A stretch of DNA of 64,000 nt, from assembly GCF_030269665.1 (NCBI RefSeq), contig NZ_BSTS01000012.1, positions 1 through 64,000 on the forward strand, written 5' to 3'. The notes below the pieces were generated by a model. It saw nothing but the letters and a program-made list of their open reading frames with translations. It had not been told where the DNA came from and searched no databases. The translations under genes and the position numbers were made by a program. Shown here piece by piece: positions 2,763 to 14,784 of the stretch (its first letter is position 1; each line of letters opens with the position of its first letter). This DNA is from Actinomycetospora sp. NBRC 106375 (GTDB taxonomy: Bacteria > Actinomycetota > Actinomycetes > Mycobacteriales > Pseudonocardiaceae).

Positions 2763-4271
2763 TCAGGAGACAACCGCTCGTCGTCCGCGAGCAACTCTCA
2801 CTAATCCCGCTTCAGCCAGCTGCGCAACCGCCCTCTGGGCGGTTCCAGCGGACACCCCATAGCGCTCCATGAGCTGCACGACCGTCGGCAAGAGCATCCC
2901 TGCTGTCAGCACCCCGCTGGTGATAGCACCGCGAAGGTCAGCAGCGATGCGCTCGTACGGACTCGAGGCGCGCGATGTCTGAACGTCAGCGCTCACGATC
3001 GGAGCTGCGTCGTCGAGATCGATCGGCATCGACGGCATGTGGCGATCAAAGTGCCCGGCGGCGCGCTGATCGGCCTCAGAGACCCAAGCGGCGTACGCCT
3101 TGAGGGTGGTGGTGCCTCCTCCCCCGTGCCCTAGACGGCCCGCCACGGTCCGCACGTCCACACCGGCCGCGATGAGCTCGGTCGCCGAGTAGTGGCGCAG
3201 CTGATGGAGGTGGATGCTCCAGCCAAGCCGTGCGCTCATGCGGATGAAGCGCTGGGTCACCGAGGACGGCGGCAACCACGAGCCGAAGTCGGGGTCCTTC
3301 GAGAACAGCCTCGACGAGGCAGTTAGTGCCGCCCCTCCGAACGCAGCGAGGTCATCGCAACGACCTCGGTACGCCCTCAAGAGGGCGACAGTCGATCGGT
3401 CGAGGGCGATCCGACGCTGCTGGTGGGTCTTGGTGTCCTTCTCCCAGGTCTTGGTGCCTTCCTGCGCGATGCTCGATCGGATCGCGAGGACTGCGCGTTC
3501 GAAGTCGACGGACTCCCATCGCAGCGCACACAGCTCGCCCCGCCGAGCGCCGGTGACCATGGCCAACCACACGAGGACACCCCACCCGAGGTCGATCGCG
3601 AAGGCCGCCTCGACGATCGCGGCCGCCTGCTCGGCGGTCGGTGGCTGCGGGTTGTTGGGCACTCCGCCCGGAGGTTCGGCGGCGTCGAGGGGGTTCACGC
3701 TGATCCACCCCCACCGCACCGCGCGGGACAGGGCCCCCGACAGACAGAAGTGGACCTCGCGAATCGAGGCCGGCGACAGCGGCTTACAGACGTGAGGCCG
3801 GCAGTTCGACGTGCAGTCGTGCCCTCCGATGACGCGGTGCTCGCTTGCCGAGCGCCCGTCACAGTGATCACGGCAGCGACGAAGCTCTCCCTTGAGCCGG
3901 TCGATGATCTCGCCGGTGAGCCTTGGGACTGGGAGGTCGCCGAGCGCCGGTCGAACGTGGAGCCGGAGGATCGACTCGTAGCGAGTCTGGGTGGTCGCGT
4001 CGACCTCGAGCACCTCGAGGTAGCGGTCGAGGAGTTGGTTGACCGTTGCTCGTGTGCGGGGCTGCTTCCGCTCATCGACCTGGCTGATGAGCCGAACTCG
4101 AGCCTTCTCGGCCTCCTTGGCCGCCCGCGCCCCGGCGGGCACCGACTCGGTCAGATAGAGCCGCTTGCCCGTGAGGGGGTCGACGCCTGCGTAGACGCGG
4201 ACGCGCAGCCCGCCGCTCGGGAGAGTCTCAACCTCGCCGCGCTGGCGGCGGGGAGCGCGGGCGCTAGCCAT
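2763..4271 (-). CDS. Tyrosine site-specific integrase fused to a GntR-type winged-helix domain
   Basis: Catalyses integration or excision of the island. N-terminal arm-binding region, then a SAM-like core-binding domain (about residues 70-200) that holds a Cys/His-rich insert (CRDHCDG, HDCTSNCRPHVC) typical of actinobacterial phage/ICE integrases. The catalytic domain shows R in TGARRGELCALRW (about 243), the H-x-x-R box HQLRH (about 355), LGHGGGG and the nucleophile Tyr in LKAYAAW (about 392). Residues about 430-502 (YERIAADLRGAI...LPTVVQLMERYGVSAGTAQRAVAQL) form a GntR-family helix-turn-helix, an addition beyond the usual integrase length. The gene lies 81 bp from the 3' end of tRNA-Glu, the likely attachment site. 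A 14-bp inverted repeat includes the start codon. Confidence 0.9.
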   Translation of the reverse strand: MASARAPRRQRGEVETLPSGGLRVRVYAGVDPLTGKRLYLTESVPAGARAAKEAEKARVRLISQVDERKQPRTRATVNQLLDRYLEVLEVDATTQTRYESILRLHVRPALGDLPVPRLTGEIIDRLKGELRRCRDHCDGRSASEHRVIGGHDCTSNCRPHVCKPLSPASIREVHFCLSGALSRAVRWGWISVNPLDAAEPPGGVPNNPQPPTAEQAAAIVEAAFAIDLGWGVLVWLAMVTGARRGELCALRWESVDFERAVLAIRSSIAQEGTKTWEKDTKTHQQRRIALDRSTVALLRAYRGRCDDLAAFGGAALTASSRLFSKDPDFGSWLPPSSVTQRFIRMSARLGWSIHLHQLRHYSATELIAAGVDVRTVAGRLGHGGGGTTTLKAYAAWVSEADQRAAGHFDRHMPSMPIDLDDAAPIVSADVQTSRASSPYERIAADLRGAITSGVLTAGMLLPTVVQLMERYGVSAGTAQRAVAQLAEAGLVRVARGRRAVVS

Positions 4272-4301: not shown

Positions 4302-4352
4302 AATAGCTCCACGAACACGAGGTCGAGAGGCTCTGCGAGCCTCTGACCTGCG

Positions 4353-4425
4353 TAGCCCCGAGGGGATTCGAACCCCCGCTACCGCCTTGAGAGGGCGGCG
4401 TCCTAGGCCGCTAGACGACGGGGCC
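4353..4425 (-). tRNA. tRNA-Glu(CTC)
   Basis: Reads as a full cloverleaf on the minus strand: acceptor GGCCCCG pairs with CGGGGCT (G1-U72 wobble) and discriminator A. The anticodon stem CCGCC/GGCGG encloses loop CTCTCAA with anticodon CTC, and the T-arm is GGGGGTTCGAATCCCCT. CCA is not encoded. Its 3' end faces the integrase gene, the usual arrangement for an element inserted into a tRNA 3' end. I found no second copy of the tRNA 3' end within the window. Confidence 0.95.
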
Positions 4426-7700: not shown

Positions 7701-7878
7701 CGCGCTGACCTGGGCCGCCGACCGTGCCGACGTCGCGGACGCCGTGCGCACCCACGCCGGCTCGATCGCCGAGGAGGTGCTCGCGGTGTCGATGACCGAG
7801 GGCGCCGTCAACGGGGGTGCCGCGGCGCGCTCCGACGACCTCTCGCTCGCCGTGGCGATCACTCCGGCGGGGGCATGA
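4723..7878 (+). CDS. ileS: Isoleucyl-tRNA synthetase, eukaryote-like (IleRS2) type
   Basis: Charges tRNA-Ile in the cytoplasm (class Ia synthetase). 1051 residues, normal for the actinobacterial type. The class I signature appears as G68-T69-H70-H71 instead of H-x-G-H, and the second signature is K609-M-S-K-H613. The CP1 editing domain shows TTTPWTLPSNTAVAV and a metal-type CWRCHTP element; DWALSRNRYWGTPLP is the usual motif before the KMSK loop. The GTG at 4723 follows an AGGAAG. I see no T-box consensus (GGTGGNACCGCG) in the 177 bp upstream, although translational T-boxes are known before ileS in other actinobacteria. The 3' end overlaps the convergent UGSC-partner gene by 20 bp. Confidence 0.96.
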   Translation: MSSSPAPGNGSKPAFASLPASVDLPAIEREVLARWDDRDVFRRTLERTADGEPWIFYEGPPTANGQPGTHHVEARAFKDLFPRFRTMRGYHVPRRAGWDCHGLPVELAVESELGFTGKGDIERYGIAEFNAACKESALRNVSAFAAMTERMGYWVDLDQAYLTMAPRYVESVWWSLKKIFDDGLLVEDHRVTPYCPRDETPLSDHEVALGYEDDVDPSVYVRFPLTDGLWAGADLLVWTTTPWTLPSNTAVAVARDIAYVRATTADGDDLVVAEDLLGVLGEGATVTDRATGADLLGSHYRRPLDLLDDERFGDAHRVVHGDHVTTDAGTGLVHMAPAFGAEDHLVAKAEGLEMVNPIGPNGHFDEDVPLIGGMFFKAADPTLVEELRARGVLWRSESYEHSYPHCWRCHTPLIYYALPSWFIRTTAIRDRLVEENERTNWYPPHIKHGRYGGWLENNVDWALSRNRYWGTPLPIWRNDADPSEMVCVGSLAELGSWVGQDLAELDPHRPYVDDVTFPAPSGTGTMRRVTDVIDVWYDSGAMPFAQWGAPHHHEADFEAAYPAQYICEAIDQTRGWFYSLMAVGTLVFDRSSYENVVCLGLLLDEQGRKMSKHLGNVLDPFELFDSHGADAVRWLMLAQGSPWVDRRVGHEALREIVRKILLTYWNTASFLVTYANASGWTPAEQPTPSDHPMDRWVLGELATCVREVTRALDDFDSSSAGRAITAFVDDLSNWYVRRSRRRFWHGEPAALSTLHTCVETLSRLMAPFTPFATDYLWTLLQGDVVEGAPDSVHLADWPTVDEAAIDPGLAERMALVQRIVELGRSTRAASGVRTRQPLSRAVVAAPGFADLASDDQGRGLLAEIAEELNVGRVEAAGSDLVEVVVKPNFRALGKRFGKQTPVVAEAVKASTDAPVDGSLTVVVDGEEIALSGDEILVEETPREGWAVRSEGGLSVGLDTELTDELRAAGLARDVVRVVQEARKTRGLEVSDRIALTWAADRADVADAVRTHAGSIAEEVLAVSMTEGAVNGGAAARSDDLSLAVAITPAGA

Positions 7879-9151
7879 CGGGGTCGGTCGGCAGGCTCAG
7901 GTCCCCGAGACGCCACCCGGACCCCGCCAGCGCGTCGGCGAGCACGCCGGCGATGACGGGTCGCGGCGCGAGGCAGTCCTCGCAGGCCTGCGGCCCGGCG
8001 GCGATGTCGACCGCGACGGCGCCGCCGCGCACGGACCACGTCAGCGCGTAGCCGTCCCGGGCGACGAGGTGCCGCAGCGGGGCCAGCGCGCGGTCGAGGT
8101 CGCCGTCCTCGACCGCCACCGTGGGCGGCGGCCCGCCGCGGGGCCCGAAGGTGTCGACGACCGCCGAGACCCCCGCGTTCGCGGCGCCGGCGACCACCAC
8201 GAGCACGGCCTCCGGCGACGTCAGCGCGTGCAGCCCGGACTCCACGTGGCCGGTGGCCTCGGGGTGGTCGTCGGGCACCCGCCAGCGCGTGGTCGACGAC
8301 ACCGCGGACTTGCCGACCGCGGCGAGCCGGTCCCGGTCGATCCACGACTCCTCGTGGACGGCGCGGGACACGTCGGCCTTCGACCAGCCGGCGTCCGCGA
8401 GCAGGTGCGCGTGCTCCGGGGAGAGCACGAGCGCGGCGCTGGTGCTCGCGTGCAGCAGCGCACCGGTGCGGGCGGCGGTGCCCGCGAGGTCGCGCAGCAG
8501 CTGCTCGGGGCGCGCGGTGTGCCGGGCCTCGACGTGGACGATCGAGCGGATGACGATCGCGGTGACGGTGCTCGACGCCGCGTCGAAGCCGAGGTCGACG
8601 TGCAGCGGGTCCCACGGGCTCGCCGCGGCGTTCTCGGCCAGGCAGCACGTGTGCTTGGCCGGGGTGCCCTGGGTGGCCTGGTCGAGCTCACCCGGCCGCA
8701 GACCGAAGATCGTGATCGCGGCGAGCCGGATGGCCCGGCCGATCGTCGCGTTGGCGCGGACCCCGGAGCCGAAGACGTTCCCCGCGGCGTTGAGCCCGAT
8801 CCGCTCGGCGACCGGGCCGTTGACCAGCACCATCGGCGCCGTGCCGGTGGTCGACTGCCAGATGCCGCGGCCCGGGTAGCGCTCGGCGCGCAGCGAGTCC
8901 CACGCCGCGAGGACCACCGGGAAGTACTCCGGGCGGCAGCCGGCCATCACGGCGGTGACGGCGGCCAGGCGCACGGTCGCGGCGCGCCCGATCTGCGGCA
9001 GGTCGAGCAGGACCTCGTCGGGGTCGCGCGCCGTCGTCGCGAGGAGCTCGGCCAGCGCGTCCTCGGTGCACGGCACCACCGGCAGCCCGTCGGTCCAGCC
9101 CGCGTCGTAGCAGTGCTCGATGGCCGCGCGGGCCACCCGTGGGTCAGGCAT
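7859..9151 (-). CDS. Uncharacterised partner protein of the UGSC selenoprotein
   Basis: 430 residues, last gene of a six-gene operon. Its ATG overlaps the stop codon of the selenoprotein gene, so translation is coupled. Conserved-looking stretches are HCYDAGWTDGLPVVPCTE near the N-terminus, the RAATVRLAAVTAVMAGCRPEY segment, VNGPVAERIGLN, and KHTCCLAEN followed by SPWDPLHVDLGFD. A C-x-x-C motif (C390-E-D-C393) lies near the C-terminus. No signal peptide or membrane segment. From memory, proteins with this segment recur beside UGSC proteins but have no established activity. The cysteine pairs suggest a thiol/selenol exchange partner; this is inference. Confidence 0.75.
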   Translation of the reverse strand: MPDPRVARAAIEHCYDAGWTDGLPVVPCTEDALAELLATTARDPDEVLLDLPQIGRAATVRLAAVTAVMAGCRPEYFPVVLAAWDSLRAERYPGRGIWQSTTGTAPMVLVNGPVAERIGLNAAGNVFGSGVRANATIGRAIRLAAITIFGLRPGELDQATQGTPAKHTCCLAENAAASPWDPLHVDLGFDAASSTVTAIVIRSIVHVEARHTARPEQLLRDLAGTAARTGALLHASTSAALVLSPEHAHLLADAGWSKADVSRAVHEESWIDRDRLAAVGKSAVSSTTRWRVPDDHPEATGHVESGLHALTSPEAVLVVVAGAANAGVSAVVDTFGPRGGPPPTVAVEDGDLDRALAPLRHLVARDGYALTWSVRGGAVAVDIAAGPQACEDCLAPRPVIAGVLADALAGSGWRLGDLSLPTDPVMPPPE

Positions 9152-9692
9152 CCGGCACCCCCAGGATCGCGAGGACGCGGGGGACGATCGCGTCCGCCCG
9201 CGCGGCGACGCCGTCACGATCGAGGCTCGCCAGCGGATGGGGCAGCACCGCGTACGGGAAGTCGGGGTGGCCCTGGACCCGCGCCATCGCCCCCGCGGCG
9301 GCCGTGAACGCGTCGGTGCACAGCGATACGGCCGGCACGCCCGCGCGCTCGAGTGCGATCCCGTCGGCCAGACTGGCCGCGCTGCAGGAGCCTCAATCGC
9401 CGATGGCGGTGACGGCCACGTCGCAGGAACGCAGCATCCGCAGGATCTGGTCCTCGTCGGCCGGGGTGCCGAAGTAGCCCTTGGTCTCGCGGACGACGGC
9501 GGCGAGCCGGAAGCGGTGACCGAGCCGCTCGGCGAGCGCGTCGAGCAGCGCCCCGGCGTTGGGCTTGCCGTTGTCGAGCAGGCCGAGCCGCAGCCCGTCG
9601 AGGGTCGCCGGCCGCGGGGTCAGCGCCGGGTCGGCGTCGCGGGCCCCGCCACCCGACGGGTCGAGGATCGGCGGGTCCCAGGTGGTCGTCAT
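9144..9692 (-). CDS. UGSC-family selenoprotein (in-frame TGA read as Sec100)
   Basis: The frame starts at ATG 9692 behind GAGGAG and reads 99 residues (LLDNGKPNAGALLDALAERL ... CDVAVTAIGD). It meets TGA at 9395-9393 and continues in the same frame as GSCSAASLADGIALERAGVP to a real TGA at 9146-9144. The TGA stands exactly at the first position of the U-G-S-C motif that defines the UGSC (seleno)protein family, so residue 100 is best read as selenocysteine, giving 182 residues. A SECIS-like hairpin follows immediately. The motif sits after a beta-strand/loop (VAVTAIGD), as a redox-active selenol would. Upstream is an FAD oxidoreductase gene (11 bp away), downstream the overlapping partner gene. 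Function is unknown; a conventional gene call would wrongly split or truncate it. Requires selA/B/C/D elsewhere in the genome. Confidence 0.88.
9365..9379 (-). promoter_or_regulatory. Putative bacterial SECIS hairpin
   Basis: Counting the U of UGA as 1, bases 17-21 (CGGCC) pair perfectly with 27-31 (GGCCG), leaving loop A22-G23-U24-C25-U26. In the E. coli fdhF SECIS the key unpaired bases contacted by SelB are G23 and U24 at this same distance from UGA, in a loop AGGUCU. The agreement in stem, spacing and loop supports decoding of the UGA as selenocysteine. Structure was judged by eye, not folded. Confidence 0.7.
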
Positions 9693-12616: not shown

Positions 12617-13672
12617 TCAGGTCCCGAGCAGATCGTTGGTGAACCACGGGTCGGGCTGCAGGCCGCCGGGCATGATGCGGGCGGCGGTCAGCTCGGCGTA
12701 CGTGGCCTGCCAGCGGGCGGGGTCGGTGCGCATGAGGTTCTGCGGTCCCGCCGCGTTCCAGTTCGCGGTGTAGGCCCGCAGGCTGGTCTTCGCCAGCTCG
12801 GTGTCCTGCAGGATCGGGAAGTCGTAGCGGCTGCGGATCGTCGCGAGCGTCTGGTCGCCGGTCGGGTCGGACAGCACCGCGCCGACGGCCGACCGGATCC
12901 CGCGCAGGTAGCGGGTCATGAGGTCGCGGTTGCGCGGGTCGTCGAGCTGCGGGCGCGACGTCGCGTAGAGCTGGGCGCCGCTGGAGATCACGTCGGCCGG
13001 GTTGAACACGACGGCGTCCGGGCGCTGGGTGCGCAGCTGCTCGGAGGTGTCCAGCGACGCGACGTAGGCGGCGATGCGGCCCTGCGCGACGAGGTCGAAC
13101 ACGCCCGGGGCGACGCCGACGACCTGGCGCTGGACGCTCGCCGGGTCGACGCCGCCGCGGGCGAGCACGAGGTCGAGGGTGGTCTCGCTGGTGCCGCCCT
13201 GCGACGGCAGCCCGATCGTCTTGCCGGCGAAGTCGGCCGGCGTCCGGATCGGCGCGCTCGCCGCGGAGACCATCCGCACCGTGACCTGCTGGAGCATCGT
13301 GCTGACGTTGACCAGCGGCGCGTTCCGCTGACCGACGGCGATCATCGTCTCGATGTCGCCGATGCGGGACACGAGCGCGCTGCCCGCGATGAGCGTCTGG
13401 ATCGCCTGGGCCGACCCGCGCGTGGTCTGGAACTGCACGTCCAGGCCTTCCCGCGCGAAGTGCCCACCGGCCGCGGCGACGAGCTCCGGGGTGAAGGAGA
13501 GCGTCTCCAGCGGCAGGACGTTGAGGAAGACGACCCGGTCGCCGGACCCGCCGGGCCCGGAGGAGCAGGCGGGGACGACCACCGCCGCGGCCCCGACCGT
13601 CGCGGCGAGGCCGGCGCGGTGCAGGAACCGGCGGCGCGACAGCGCCGGGGTCATCGGGAACGACGTCGTCAC
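12617..13672 (-). CDS. ABC transporter substrate-binding lipoprotein, Tat-exported (NMT1/SsuA-like)
   Basis: First gene of the operon. The GTG at 13672 is preferred because a GAGGAGG lies six bases before it. The N-terminus has a twin-arginine signal SRRRFLHRAG and a lipobox VVPAC with Cys36, so the mature protein (351-residue precursor) is lipid-anchored outside the membrane. The body fits the NMT1/THI5 and SsuA fold (LETLSFTPELVAAAGGHFAREGLDVQF; FAGKTIGLPSQGGTSE; PWFTNDLL). Tat export suggests folding in the cytoplasm. Ligand unknown, probably a small anionic organic compound. Confidence 0.9.
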   Translation of the reverse strand: MTTSFPMTPALSRRRFLHRAGLAATVGAAAVVVPACSSGPGGSGDRVVFLNVLPLETLSFTPELVAAAGGHFAREGLDVQFQTTRGSAQAIQTLIAGSALVSRIGDIETMIAVGQRNAPLVNVSTMLQQVTVRMVSAASAPIRTPADFAGKTIGLPSQGGTSETTLDLVLARGGVDPASVQRQVVGVAPGVFDLVAQGRIAAYVASLDTSEQLRTQRPDAVVFNPADVISSGAQLYATSRPQLDDPRNRDLMTRYLRGIRSAVGAVLSDPTGDQTLATIRSRYDFPILQDTELAKTSLRAYTANWNAAGPQNLMRTDPARWQATYAELTAARIMPGGLQPDPWFTNDLLGT

Positions 13673-13800
13673 CCGAGCCTCCTCGGTCTCGCCTCGTGGT
13701 GGCGCGCCCGGGGAATGGTGGAAACGCATCCCTCGACGGCCGAAATCACACTACGAACGATTCCGATCCGGCGGGAAATCAGTAGTTCGAATTGACGTCA
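13673..13800 (-). promoter_or_regulatory. Likely promoter region of the transporter-selenoprotein operon
   Basis: 128 bp between the LysR gene and the operon start. It contains a loose dyad gattccgatccggcgggaaatc (13758-13779), whose ends GATTcC/GGaAATC are inverted, flanked by actacgaac and gtagttcg. That spacing is compatible with a LysR-type site. No clear -35/-10 pair could be picked with confidence. Confidence 0.35.
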
Positions 13801-14784
13801 TCATCCGGGTGTATGGCCGCTCGCCGTGATCATCCCGAGATCGGTGTCCGGGGAGATCCGGGCCGCCTGGCGGACCACGCCGCGCAGCCACCGGTGCGAC
13901 GGGTCGTCGTCGACGCGGTGGTGCCACCACAGGCACTCGACGATCTCGGGAGGGTCGCCGGGACAGGGCACGATGACCAGGTCCGGGTGGTCGGCGAAGG
14001 TCACCGCGAGGCGCCGCTGCATCACGGCCACCCGGTCGGTGCCGGCCACGAAGTAGGGCGTCGCGCGGTAGCTGTCGACGCGGACCGCGACCCGGGGGCG
14101 GCGGGAGAGCCGGGACAGCAACGGGGTCAGCGGGTAGCTGGCCGGGTAGCCGCCGTCGGGGTGGTGCGGCACCACCCACGGCAGCTCCTCGAGGTCGGGC
14201 AGCGCGAGCCGCTCGGCGGCCGGGTGGTGCCGGTCGATCACGCAGACCCACCGGTCGCGGAAGAGCTCGAGGTCGCGGATCCCGGCGGTCCGCAGGGCCT
14301 GGGTCGGCGCGGAGATGATCCCGTCGATGACGCGCAGCGTGTCCAGCGGATCGGTCGGCAGCGCCTCGTTGACGATCTTGACGTGGAGCCGGGTGCCGGG
14401 CGCGGCCCGGTACATCGCGCGCGACAGCGACTCGCCGAGCGCGCAGACCGCGTAGTCGGGCATGAGGAGGGTGAACTCGCGCTGCGAGTCCTCCGGCCGG
14501 AAGTCCCCGGTGGTGACGAACAGGGCCTCCAGGCCCTCGCAGACCGGCTCGACCTGGCCGGCGAGCTGCTCGGCGAGCGGCGAGAGCACGAACTGCGCGC
14601 CGTTGCGGACCAGCAGCTCGTCGGCGAAGTGGCGGCGCAGCCGCAGCAGGGCGGCGCTGGCGGCGGGCTGGGTGACCCCGATCCGCTCGGCGGCCCGTGT
14701 CACGTTGCGCTCGCGCAGCAGCTCCCGGAGGAACACGACGAGGTTGAGGTCGAGGTTGGCCAGCGACGCGCGCGGGCGGCTCAT
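13801..14784 (-). CDS. LysR-family transcriptional regulator (NodD-like)
   Basis: 327 residues. N-terminal helix-turn-helix LRERNVTRAAERIGVTQPAASAALLRLR (about 21-48), followed by a periplasmic-binding-like effector domain (REFTLLMPDYAV ... RDRWVCVIDRHHPAA). The FRPEDSQREF linker is typical of the NodD/NahR-type branch. It lies directly upstream of, and in the same direction as, the transporter-selenoprotein operon and downstream of the hydrolase genes, so it probably senses the pathway substrate and controls one or both transcription units. Confidence 0.88.
   Translation of the reverse strand: MSRPRASLANLDLNLVVFLRELLRERNVTRAAERIGVTQPAASAALLRLRRHFADELLVRNGAQFVLSPLAEQLAGQVEPVCEGLEALFVTTGDFRPEDSQREFTLLMPDYAVCALGESLSRAMYRAAPGTRLHVKIVNEALPTDPLDTLRVIDGIISAPTQALRTAGIRDLELFRDRWVCVIDRHHPAAERLALPDLEELPWVVPHHPDGGYPASYPLTPLLSRLSRRPRVAVRVDSYRATPYFVAGTDRVAVMQRRLAVTFADHPDLVIVPCPGDPPEIVECLWWHHRVDDDPSHRWLRGVVRQAARISPDTDLGMITASGHTPG

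Follow-up and report, generated by a model that had tools for sequence, protein, structure and literature searches.

Selenoproteins of the UGSC family had been described in marine metagenomes by 2008; PMC2398784 suggests a likely Trx-like fold for them and reports a fusion with a second domain, named Unknown_1. A proposed fluoroacetate reductase of the anaerobe Cloacibacillus is encoded by farACEB, which includes homologues of GrdB and GrdE, according to PMC10838667. No reaction or substrate for UGSC was found in the literature searched; the searches returned mostly selenium and trace-element surveys, and the UGSC passages retrieved held neither a relation to GrdB nor a function. Here we follow up a UGSC-type gene predicted from sequence alone in a 64,000-nucleotide stretch of Actinomycetospora sp. 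NBRC 106375 (NZ_BSTS01000012.1, positions 1–64,000; hereafter the window), together with its relatives in other genomes and on plasmids.

The gene occupies positions 9144–9692 of the minus strand and yields a read-through protein of 182 residues. Sequence and read-through translation agree with the original prediction of one frame, running from ATG 9692–9690 to the final TGA 9146–9144 and interrupted solely by TGA 9395–9393. This TGA is codon 100 and is followed by GGC TCC TGC (Gly-Ser-Cys) in the context GD-U-GSC, which places the UGSC motif at codons 100–103 as a UxxC arrangement with Sec at its first position. The family call was borne out by matches above cut-off to PF24696 (UGSC; Pfam, 210 bits versus a cut-off of 25, E 3e-62, residues 9–178), which extends across the TGA, and to NF041046 (UGSC family (seleno)protein; NCBIfam, 151 bits versus 125); the gene is a further member of a known family. 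Coding character is present on both sides of the TGA, as had been claimed, with an in-frame score per codon of 0.44 upstream and 0.21 downstream and negative scores in all five other frames on either side. The best-matching Sec-type relative found, L033 from another genus, is 54% identical in amino-acid sequence before the TGA and 62% identical after it. A simple gene caller did split the gene at the TGA, in line with the expectation for standard gene calling. In DNA this rich in GC, a frame that stays open past a TGA says little on its own; the argument for read-through is carried by homology, by a SECIS-type hairpin and by the Sec machinery.

Overlapping the UGSC stop by 8 bases on the same strand lies a gene of 430 codons (7859–9151), here termed PA. 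A six-frame search revealed 61 UGSC domains in 57 stretches, 51 of them in stretches found via UGSC and 10 in stretches found via PA, and a same-strand PA lies within 4 kb of all 61 (within 400 bases of 59); the loci counted include some that had served as seeds for the UGSC and PA search profiles. In the reverse direction, UGSC was present in 10/10 plasmid stretches found via PA, these being the records examined among 24 with a PA match. Plasmid records came from haloarchaea, Variovorax, Acidovorax, Roseovarius, Arthrobacter, Paracoccus, Vibrio and Sporomusa, and PA is annotated on them as a hypothetical protein wherever the gene is listed. Within a 150-genome sample, PA was detected in all 20 UGSC genomes and in 1 of the 130 others, there as one weak fragment. 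Extra PA copies with no detected UGSC occur inside UGSC loci, and the two are fused in one paralogue of the same genome (L023, 8270–10030) and in several other loci. Judged by this co-occurrence, PA is an obligate partner of UGSC and the pairing is fixed; PA is likely the Unknown_1 of PMC2398784. The window PA matched nothing in Pfam or NCBIfam at E 0.01, three other copies matched nothing in Pfam at E 1, and comparison of PA with solved structures gave no match better than E 1.7. PA was absent from viral contigs, and the window copy had no counterpart in PADLOC. A scan of named genome contigs yielded only 4 loci. PA was also considered as a GrdE and rejected (hhalign probability 0.1, no similarity).

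The Sec-bearing domain itself points towards selenoprotein B. The window protein matches the GrdB model TIGR01917 over residues 93–156 at E 0.0075, with 15.2 bits versus a cut-off of 602, and scores far below the curated cut-offs of the GrdB/PrdB family. Among 35 chosen diverse UGSC proteins, all xGSC (Met, Trp and UGAC-type forms were left out), NCBIfam matches at E ≤ 0.1 were obtained for TIGR01917 (GrdB) in 13 (best E 8.5e-7), the GrdF model in 10 (9.5e-6), the PrdB model in 9 (1.8e-4), TIGR01918 in 6 (9.3e-7) and the GrdH model in 3 (2.1e-6). The only non-self models with a best E below 1e-5 in this panel were selenoprotein-B reductases (GrdB, GrdF, GrdH); other non-self families were scattered, the commonest being a geranylgeranyl reductase model (5/35, best E 5.8e-4), and no second Pfam family recurred in the UGSC proteins. 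In GrdB-like proteins the PF07355 match stops just short of the Sec site. Comparison of a profile built from 50 UGSC domains with one built from 12 actinobacterial GrdB-like C-terminal domains gave a probability of 91.3 (P 9.5e-7) and placed the UxxC columns in register, and the reversed-profile control gave 0.6. By these comparisons, based on NCBIfam models and GrdB-like actinobacterial proteins, UGSC appears distantly related to the selenoprotein-B reductases (GrdB/PrdB), by remote homology only. The actinobacterial GrdB-like proteins (L105–L115) comprise the C-terminal part of PF07355 and carry an in-frame TGA or Cys in a U/C-P-x-C motif just beyond the Pfam match; they are possible further selenoproteins.

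We also predicted the UGSC structure from a 5-sequence alignment (pLDDT 84.5, pTM 0.81). The model contains five alternating strands and helices (beta-alpha units), with Sec after the third beta strand and just ahead of helix 101–116. This predicted five beta-alpha order does not look like thioredoxin, and the Trx-like fold suggested in PMC2398784 appears not to fit the structure model; the fold comparison made is not of a kind that can exclude a family. A search of UGSC against solved structures returned nothing significant (best E 0.16).

In the window, UGSC and PA belong to a minus-strand operon with a FAD-dependent oxidoreductase (PF12831; 9704–10993), a relative of which is found in L057. 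An ABC importer lies next to it on the same strand, made up of a permease (PF00528; 10995–11786), an ATPase (PF00005; 11788–12615) and a substrate-binding protein (PF09084, NMT1/THI5-like; 12617–13729), and then a LysR-type regulator (13801–14784, minus strand) assigned to the system by its position. The best NCBIfam match of the permease, SaoP, was rejected at 132 bits versus a cut-off of 295. L057, the stretch around the most similar Sec relative, shares with the window the importer, UGSC, PA, the FAD enzyme and a NifU-like domain. Other UGSC neighbours include CaiB-type CoA transferases, acyl-CoA enzymes and F420/LLM-type oxidoreductases, and the transporters near UGSC loci are of ABC, TRAP, TTT or MFS type; neighbour names follow annotation for plasmid records, Pfam for the window and otherwise a reading of cluster representatives. 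Elsewhere in the window, an integrase-like protein with an apparent GntR-type C-terminal domain, recognised by reading the translation only, is encoded at 2763–4271 (minus strand) beside tRNA-Glu (4352–4425); its place next to tRNA genes is perhaps the edge of an integrated element.

Two genomes (G132, G148) carry several UGSC–PA pairs within about 100 kb of tRNA-Sec and selA-/selB-like genes. Their large islands (G132:C2:512001-572000, L064–L066; G148:C43:1-80000, L067–L070) combine tRNA-Sec, selB-/selA-like genes and several pairs with CoA transferases, importers and a gene read as selD-like. The Paracoccus ferrooxidans plasmid pFER4 (L130) carries a Sec-type UGSC with the SECIS apex, annotated as two hypothetical proteins; a gene annotated as selB is some 4 kb away.

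Candidate electron carriers recur around some loci. The NifU-like CxxC domain at the C-terminus of the window PA (7883–8095, minus strand, end approximate) is NifU-like by resemblance only, and the profile that marks it was seeded with this stretch; it is a separate small gene in L058, L060 and L061, and in L056 and Arthrobacter it forms the C-terminal end of the UGSC protein. Among three pieces scanned with PF01106, only the 87-residue protein of L068 passed the cut-off; the L056 C-terminus reached E 0.11 and the 76-residue gene of L058 did not match. NifU-like domains lie within 6 kb of 13/61 UGSC domains and thioredoxin reductase (TrxR)-like genes within 6 kb of 10/61, in 8 stretches, none of them near the window copy. 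Some of the counted loci had themselves been seeds for the two profiles (7 of 9 TrxR-bearing stretches), so the figures document presence and do not amount to an independent test. In Arthrobacter the gene order is trxB-trxA-PA-UGSC; on the plasmid of Arthrobacter sp. ERGS1:01 (L134) this array follows an ABC importer and an annotated phosphosulfolactate synthase gene, a hint of a sulfonate substrate in that case. Searches with the N-terminal CPTC domain of the C1 partner found nothing, and the domain is thioredoxin-like by eye only.

By analogy, we propose that the UGSC selenoprotein and PA probably form an enzyme that uses Sec as the nucleophile in reductive cleavage of imported small organic acids, with both substrate and reaction inferred. 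The template is the selenoprotein-B step of glycine reductase together with the proposed fluoroacetate reductase (PMC10838667, PMC10298544). PA would hold or activate the imported small molecule, which is probably a carboxylic acid with a substituent; Sec would play the nucleophilic role proposed for its distant relatives GrdB, PrdB and FarB and attack the carbon bearing a leaving group (N, S, O or halogen), and the UxxC cysteine would resolve the intermediate or an Se–S bond. Either thioredoxin/thioredoxin reductase or a flavoprotein may supply the electrons, possibly via the NifU-like CxxC domain. For the window copy, substrate uptake would fall to the neighbouring ABC importer, and the FAD enzyme would act on substrate or product. 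We counted the CoA transferases, importers and acyl-CoA enzymes near UGSC for this catabolic reading. PF09338 (GrdE-type) and PF07355 found no match in the same genome and PA is unlike GrdE, so there is no ground for assuming pyruvoyl chemistry of the kind used by glycine reductase. More tentatively, and with rather less confidence, UGSC–PA may represent an unrecognised class of two-component selenoenzymes, in which a stand-alone GrdB-type Sec domain and a new substrate-binding partner cleave C–X bonds of many different imported acids, fed by TrxR and NifU-like CxxC carriers; many hosts would probably be aerobic, with several paralogues per genome, and the system can sit in islands or on plasmids with Sec machinery genes.

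A general thiol/peroxide oxidoreductase, thioredoxin- or peroxiredoxin-like in keeping with a published suggestion and with PA as its protein substrate or regulator, would account for the resemblance of the UxxC motif to redox selenoproteins and for the TrxR-like genes close by in some loci. We regard it as unlikely, given a structure model of five beta-alpha units, recurrent non-self family matches to GrdB/PrdB, and several paralogues per genome in differing settings among importers and CoA enzymes, which fit catabolism better than housekeeping redox.

The residue at the Sec site bears on a further alternative. We surveyed 58 loci from the same genome, the family sample and the phylum sample, mostly best matches and leaving out three GrdB-like loci. 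Fifty of them pass the motif xG(S/T)C with no other stop, and the residue at the site is Sec or Cys in every one of these; set aside were L089 and L095 (UGAC), L100 (UGGC), L101 (UDGC), L035 (CAGC), L102 (Met), and L087 and L099, which have no readable UxxC motif inside the stretch. The original prediction had named a residue other than Cys or Sec in close relatives as counting against it: the Sec/Cys pattern stood in every motif-passing domain, whereas other residues do exist, in divergent relatives only, namely Met in L102 and in Vibrio and Sporomusa, and Trp in a single fused paralogue of G132 and another of G148. The Met forms from Vibrio and Sporomusa (L131, L132) are UGSC–PA fusions beside annotated aconitase X, and the Trp forms are the fusions L065 12251–13771 and L068 11743–13311. 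Part of the UGSC family so works without a selenol or thiol at the site, and these fusions are possibly a lineage with another function. Met beside aconitase X, and Trp in G132 and G148, would suit a non-redox step for UGSC–PA as a whole, for example a lyase or hydration tied to aconitase X-type enzymes, with Sec/Cys structural or regulatory; Sec or Cys in 50/50 motif-passing domains, the divergence of the Met/Trp forms and the dedicated machinery that Sec costs make this quite improbable, and the reductive-cleavage proposal is the one we retain.

Sec insertion at the UGA draws on several lines of evidence besides the family match and the Sec/Cys-only site. The genome encodes tRNA-Sec (74.8 bits versus a cut-off of 47, C23:9325-9416), selA (382 versus 268) and selB (261 versus 242) on the same contig, and selD (392 versus 125), so each component that the original prediction had listed for checking is present over cut-off. 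A formate dehydrogenase gene with an in-frame TGA (L009, 9489–12719) directly follows the tRNA-Sec gene. Among 150 genomes of the same GTDB family, UGSC matches occurred in 23, over cut-off in 20, and tRNA-Sec over cut-off was found in all 20 of the latter, including those with Cys-type copies. The accompanying statement that selenoproteins are rare in actinomycetes did not hold for this GTDB family, in which 102/150 genomes have tRNA-Sec over cut-off. In a phylum sample of 396 genomes, 27 had UGSC matches at E 1e-6.

Directly after the UGA is a SECIS-type hairpin (9362–9381, minus strand; apex AGUCU at 9374–9370), at a fixed distance (offsets 14–33 from the U of the UGA, counting from 0). Scoring covered 60/62 loci (L087 and L102 left out; the Cys set includes the CAGC form L035). 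An apex AGUNU at offsets 21–25 was present in 34/37 Sec forms versus 0/23 Cys forms, the exceptions being L013 (the fused paralogue of the same genome), L100 and L101; the 37 Sec forms represent 15 different hairpin sequences and are hence not independent. At least five of six apical pairs are formed in 35/37 Sec versus 4/23 Cys forms; the window copy forms 6/8 pairs, including all six apical ones. The formate dehydrogenase of the same genome has GGUCU at the same offset as the apex. For covariation we used 19 chosen sequences: 17 of the 37 UGSC Sec forms, picked mostly for differing hairpins and with the non-conforming L013 and L101 left out, a Paracoccus plasmid UGSC and this formate dehydrogenase. 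In this set, standard pairs filled 92.8% of pair cells versus a shuffle mean of 76.4%, and both-sided changes occurred in 19 pair cells versus 5.6; four of five measures were reached by 0/500 shuffles and the fifth by 1/500, and sliding the pairing partner lowered all measures. Rfam gave no SECIS match in the stretch. Hairpin energy was tried as a discriminator and discarded (mean −11.0 for Sec versus −10.4 kcal/mol for Cys, p 0.14); energy alone does not discriminate because GC-rich DNA folds anyway, and it is hairpin position and apex sequence that do separate Sec from Cys forms. The reading of TGA 9395–9393 as a genuine stop, as a mutation or as an error in sequencing has nothing but the plain code in its favour, and is extremely improbable with exactly one in-frame TGA in each of the genome's four UGSC genes, one in 26/50 match rows of the family sample and 38/45 of the phylum sample, and a SECIS hairpin with covariation. 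Taken together, the sequence evidence indicates that the window gene is very probably a real selenoprotein whose UGA is read as Sec, in agreement with the prediction.

Compared with known systems, the window protein is like the UGSC family (PF24696/NF041046) in its full-length match above cut-off, its UGSC motif and its Cys relatives, and in both cases UGSC also occurs fused to a second domain. Where PMC2398784 describes a likely Trx-like fold, our comparisons point to a relation with GrdB/PrdB and to a partner gene that is obligate; within the literature searched, and apart from the UGSC–Unknown_1 fusion, neither is described. Together with the link to thioredoxin reductase, these two findings make UGSC function open to experimental test, and if the proposal is true, aerobic Sec-dependent cleavage of C–N, C–S or C–halogen bonds would matter for natural carbon turnover and pollutant breakdown. 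UGSC remotely resembles selenoprotein B (GrdB, GrdF, GrdH, PrdB) in the C-terminal domain that bears the Sec, and the Sec/Cys columns of the two coincide. Unlike selenoprotein B of glycine, sarcosine, betaine and D-proline reductase, it is a single domain of about 180 residues that lacks GrdE; with no GrdE found in the genome and a PA unlike it, the chemistry cannot follow that template in every detail. A parallel is farACEB, where, according to PMC10838667, a selenoprotein-B relative likewise lies beside a transporter and Sec is proposed to attack the C–X bond of a small acid.
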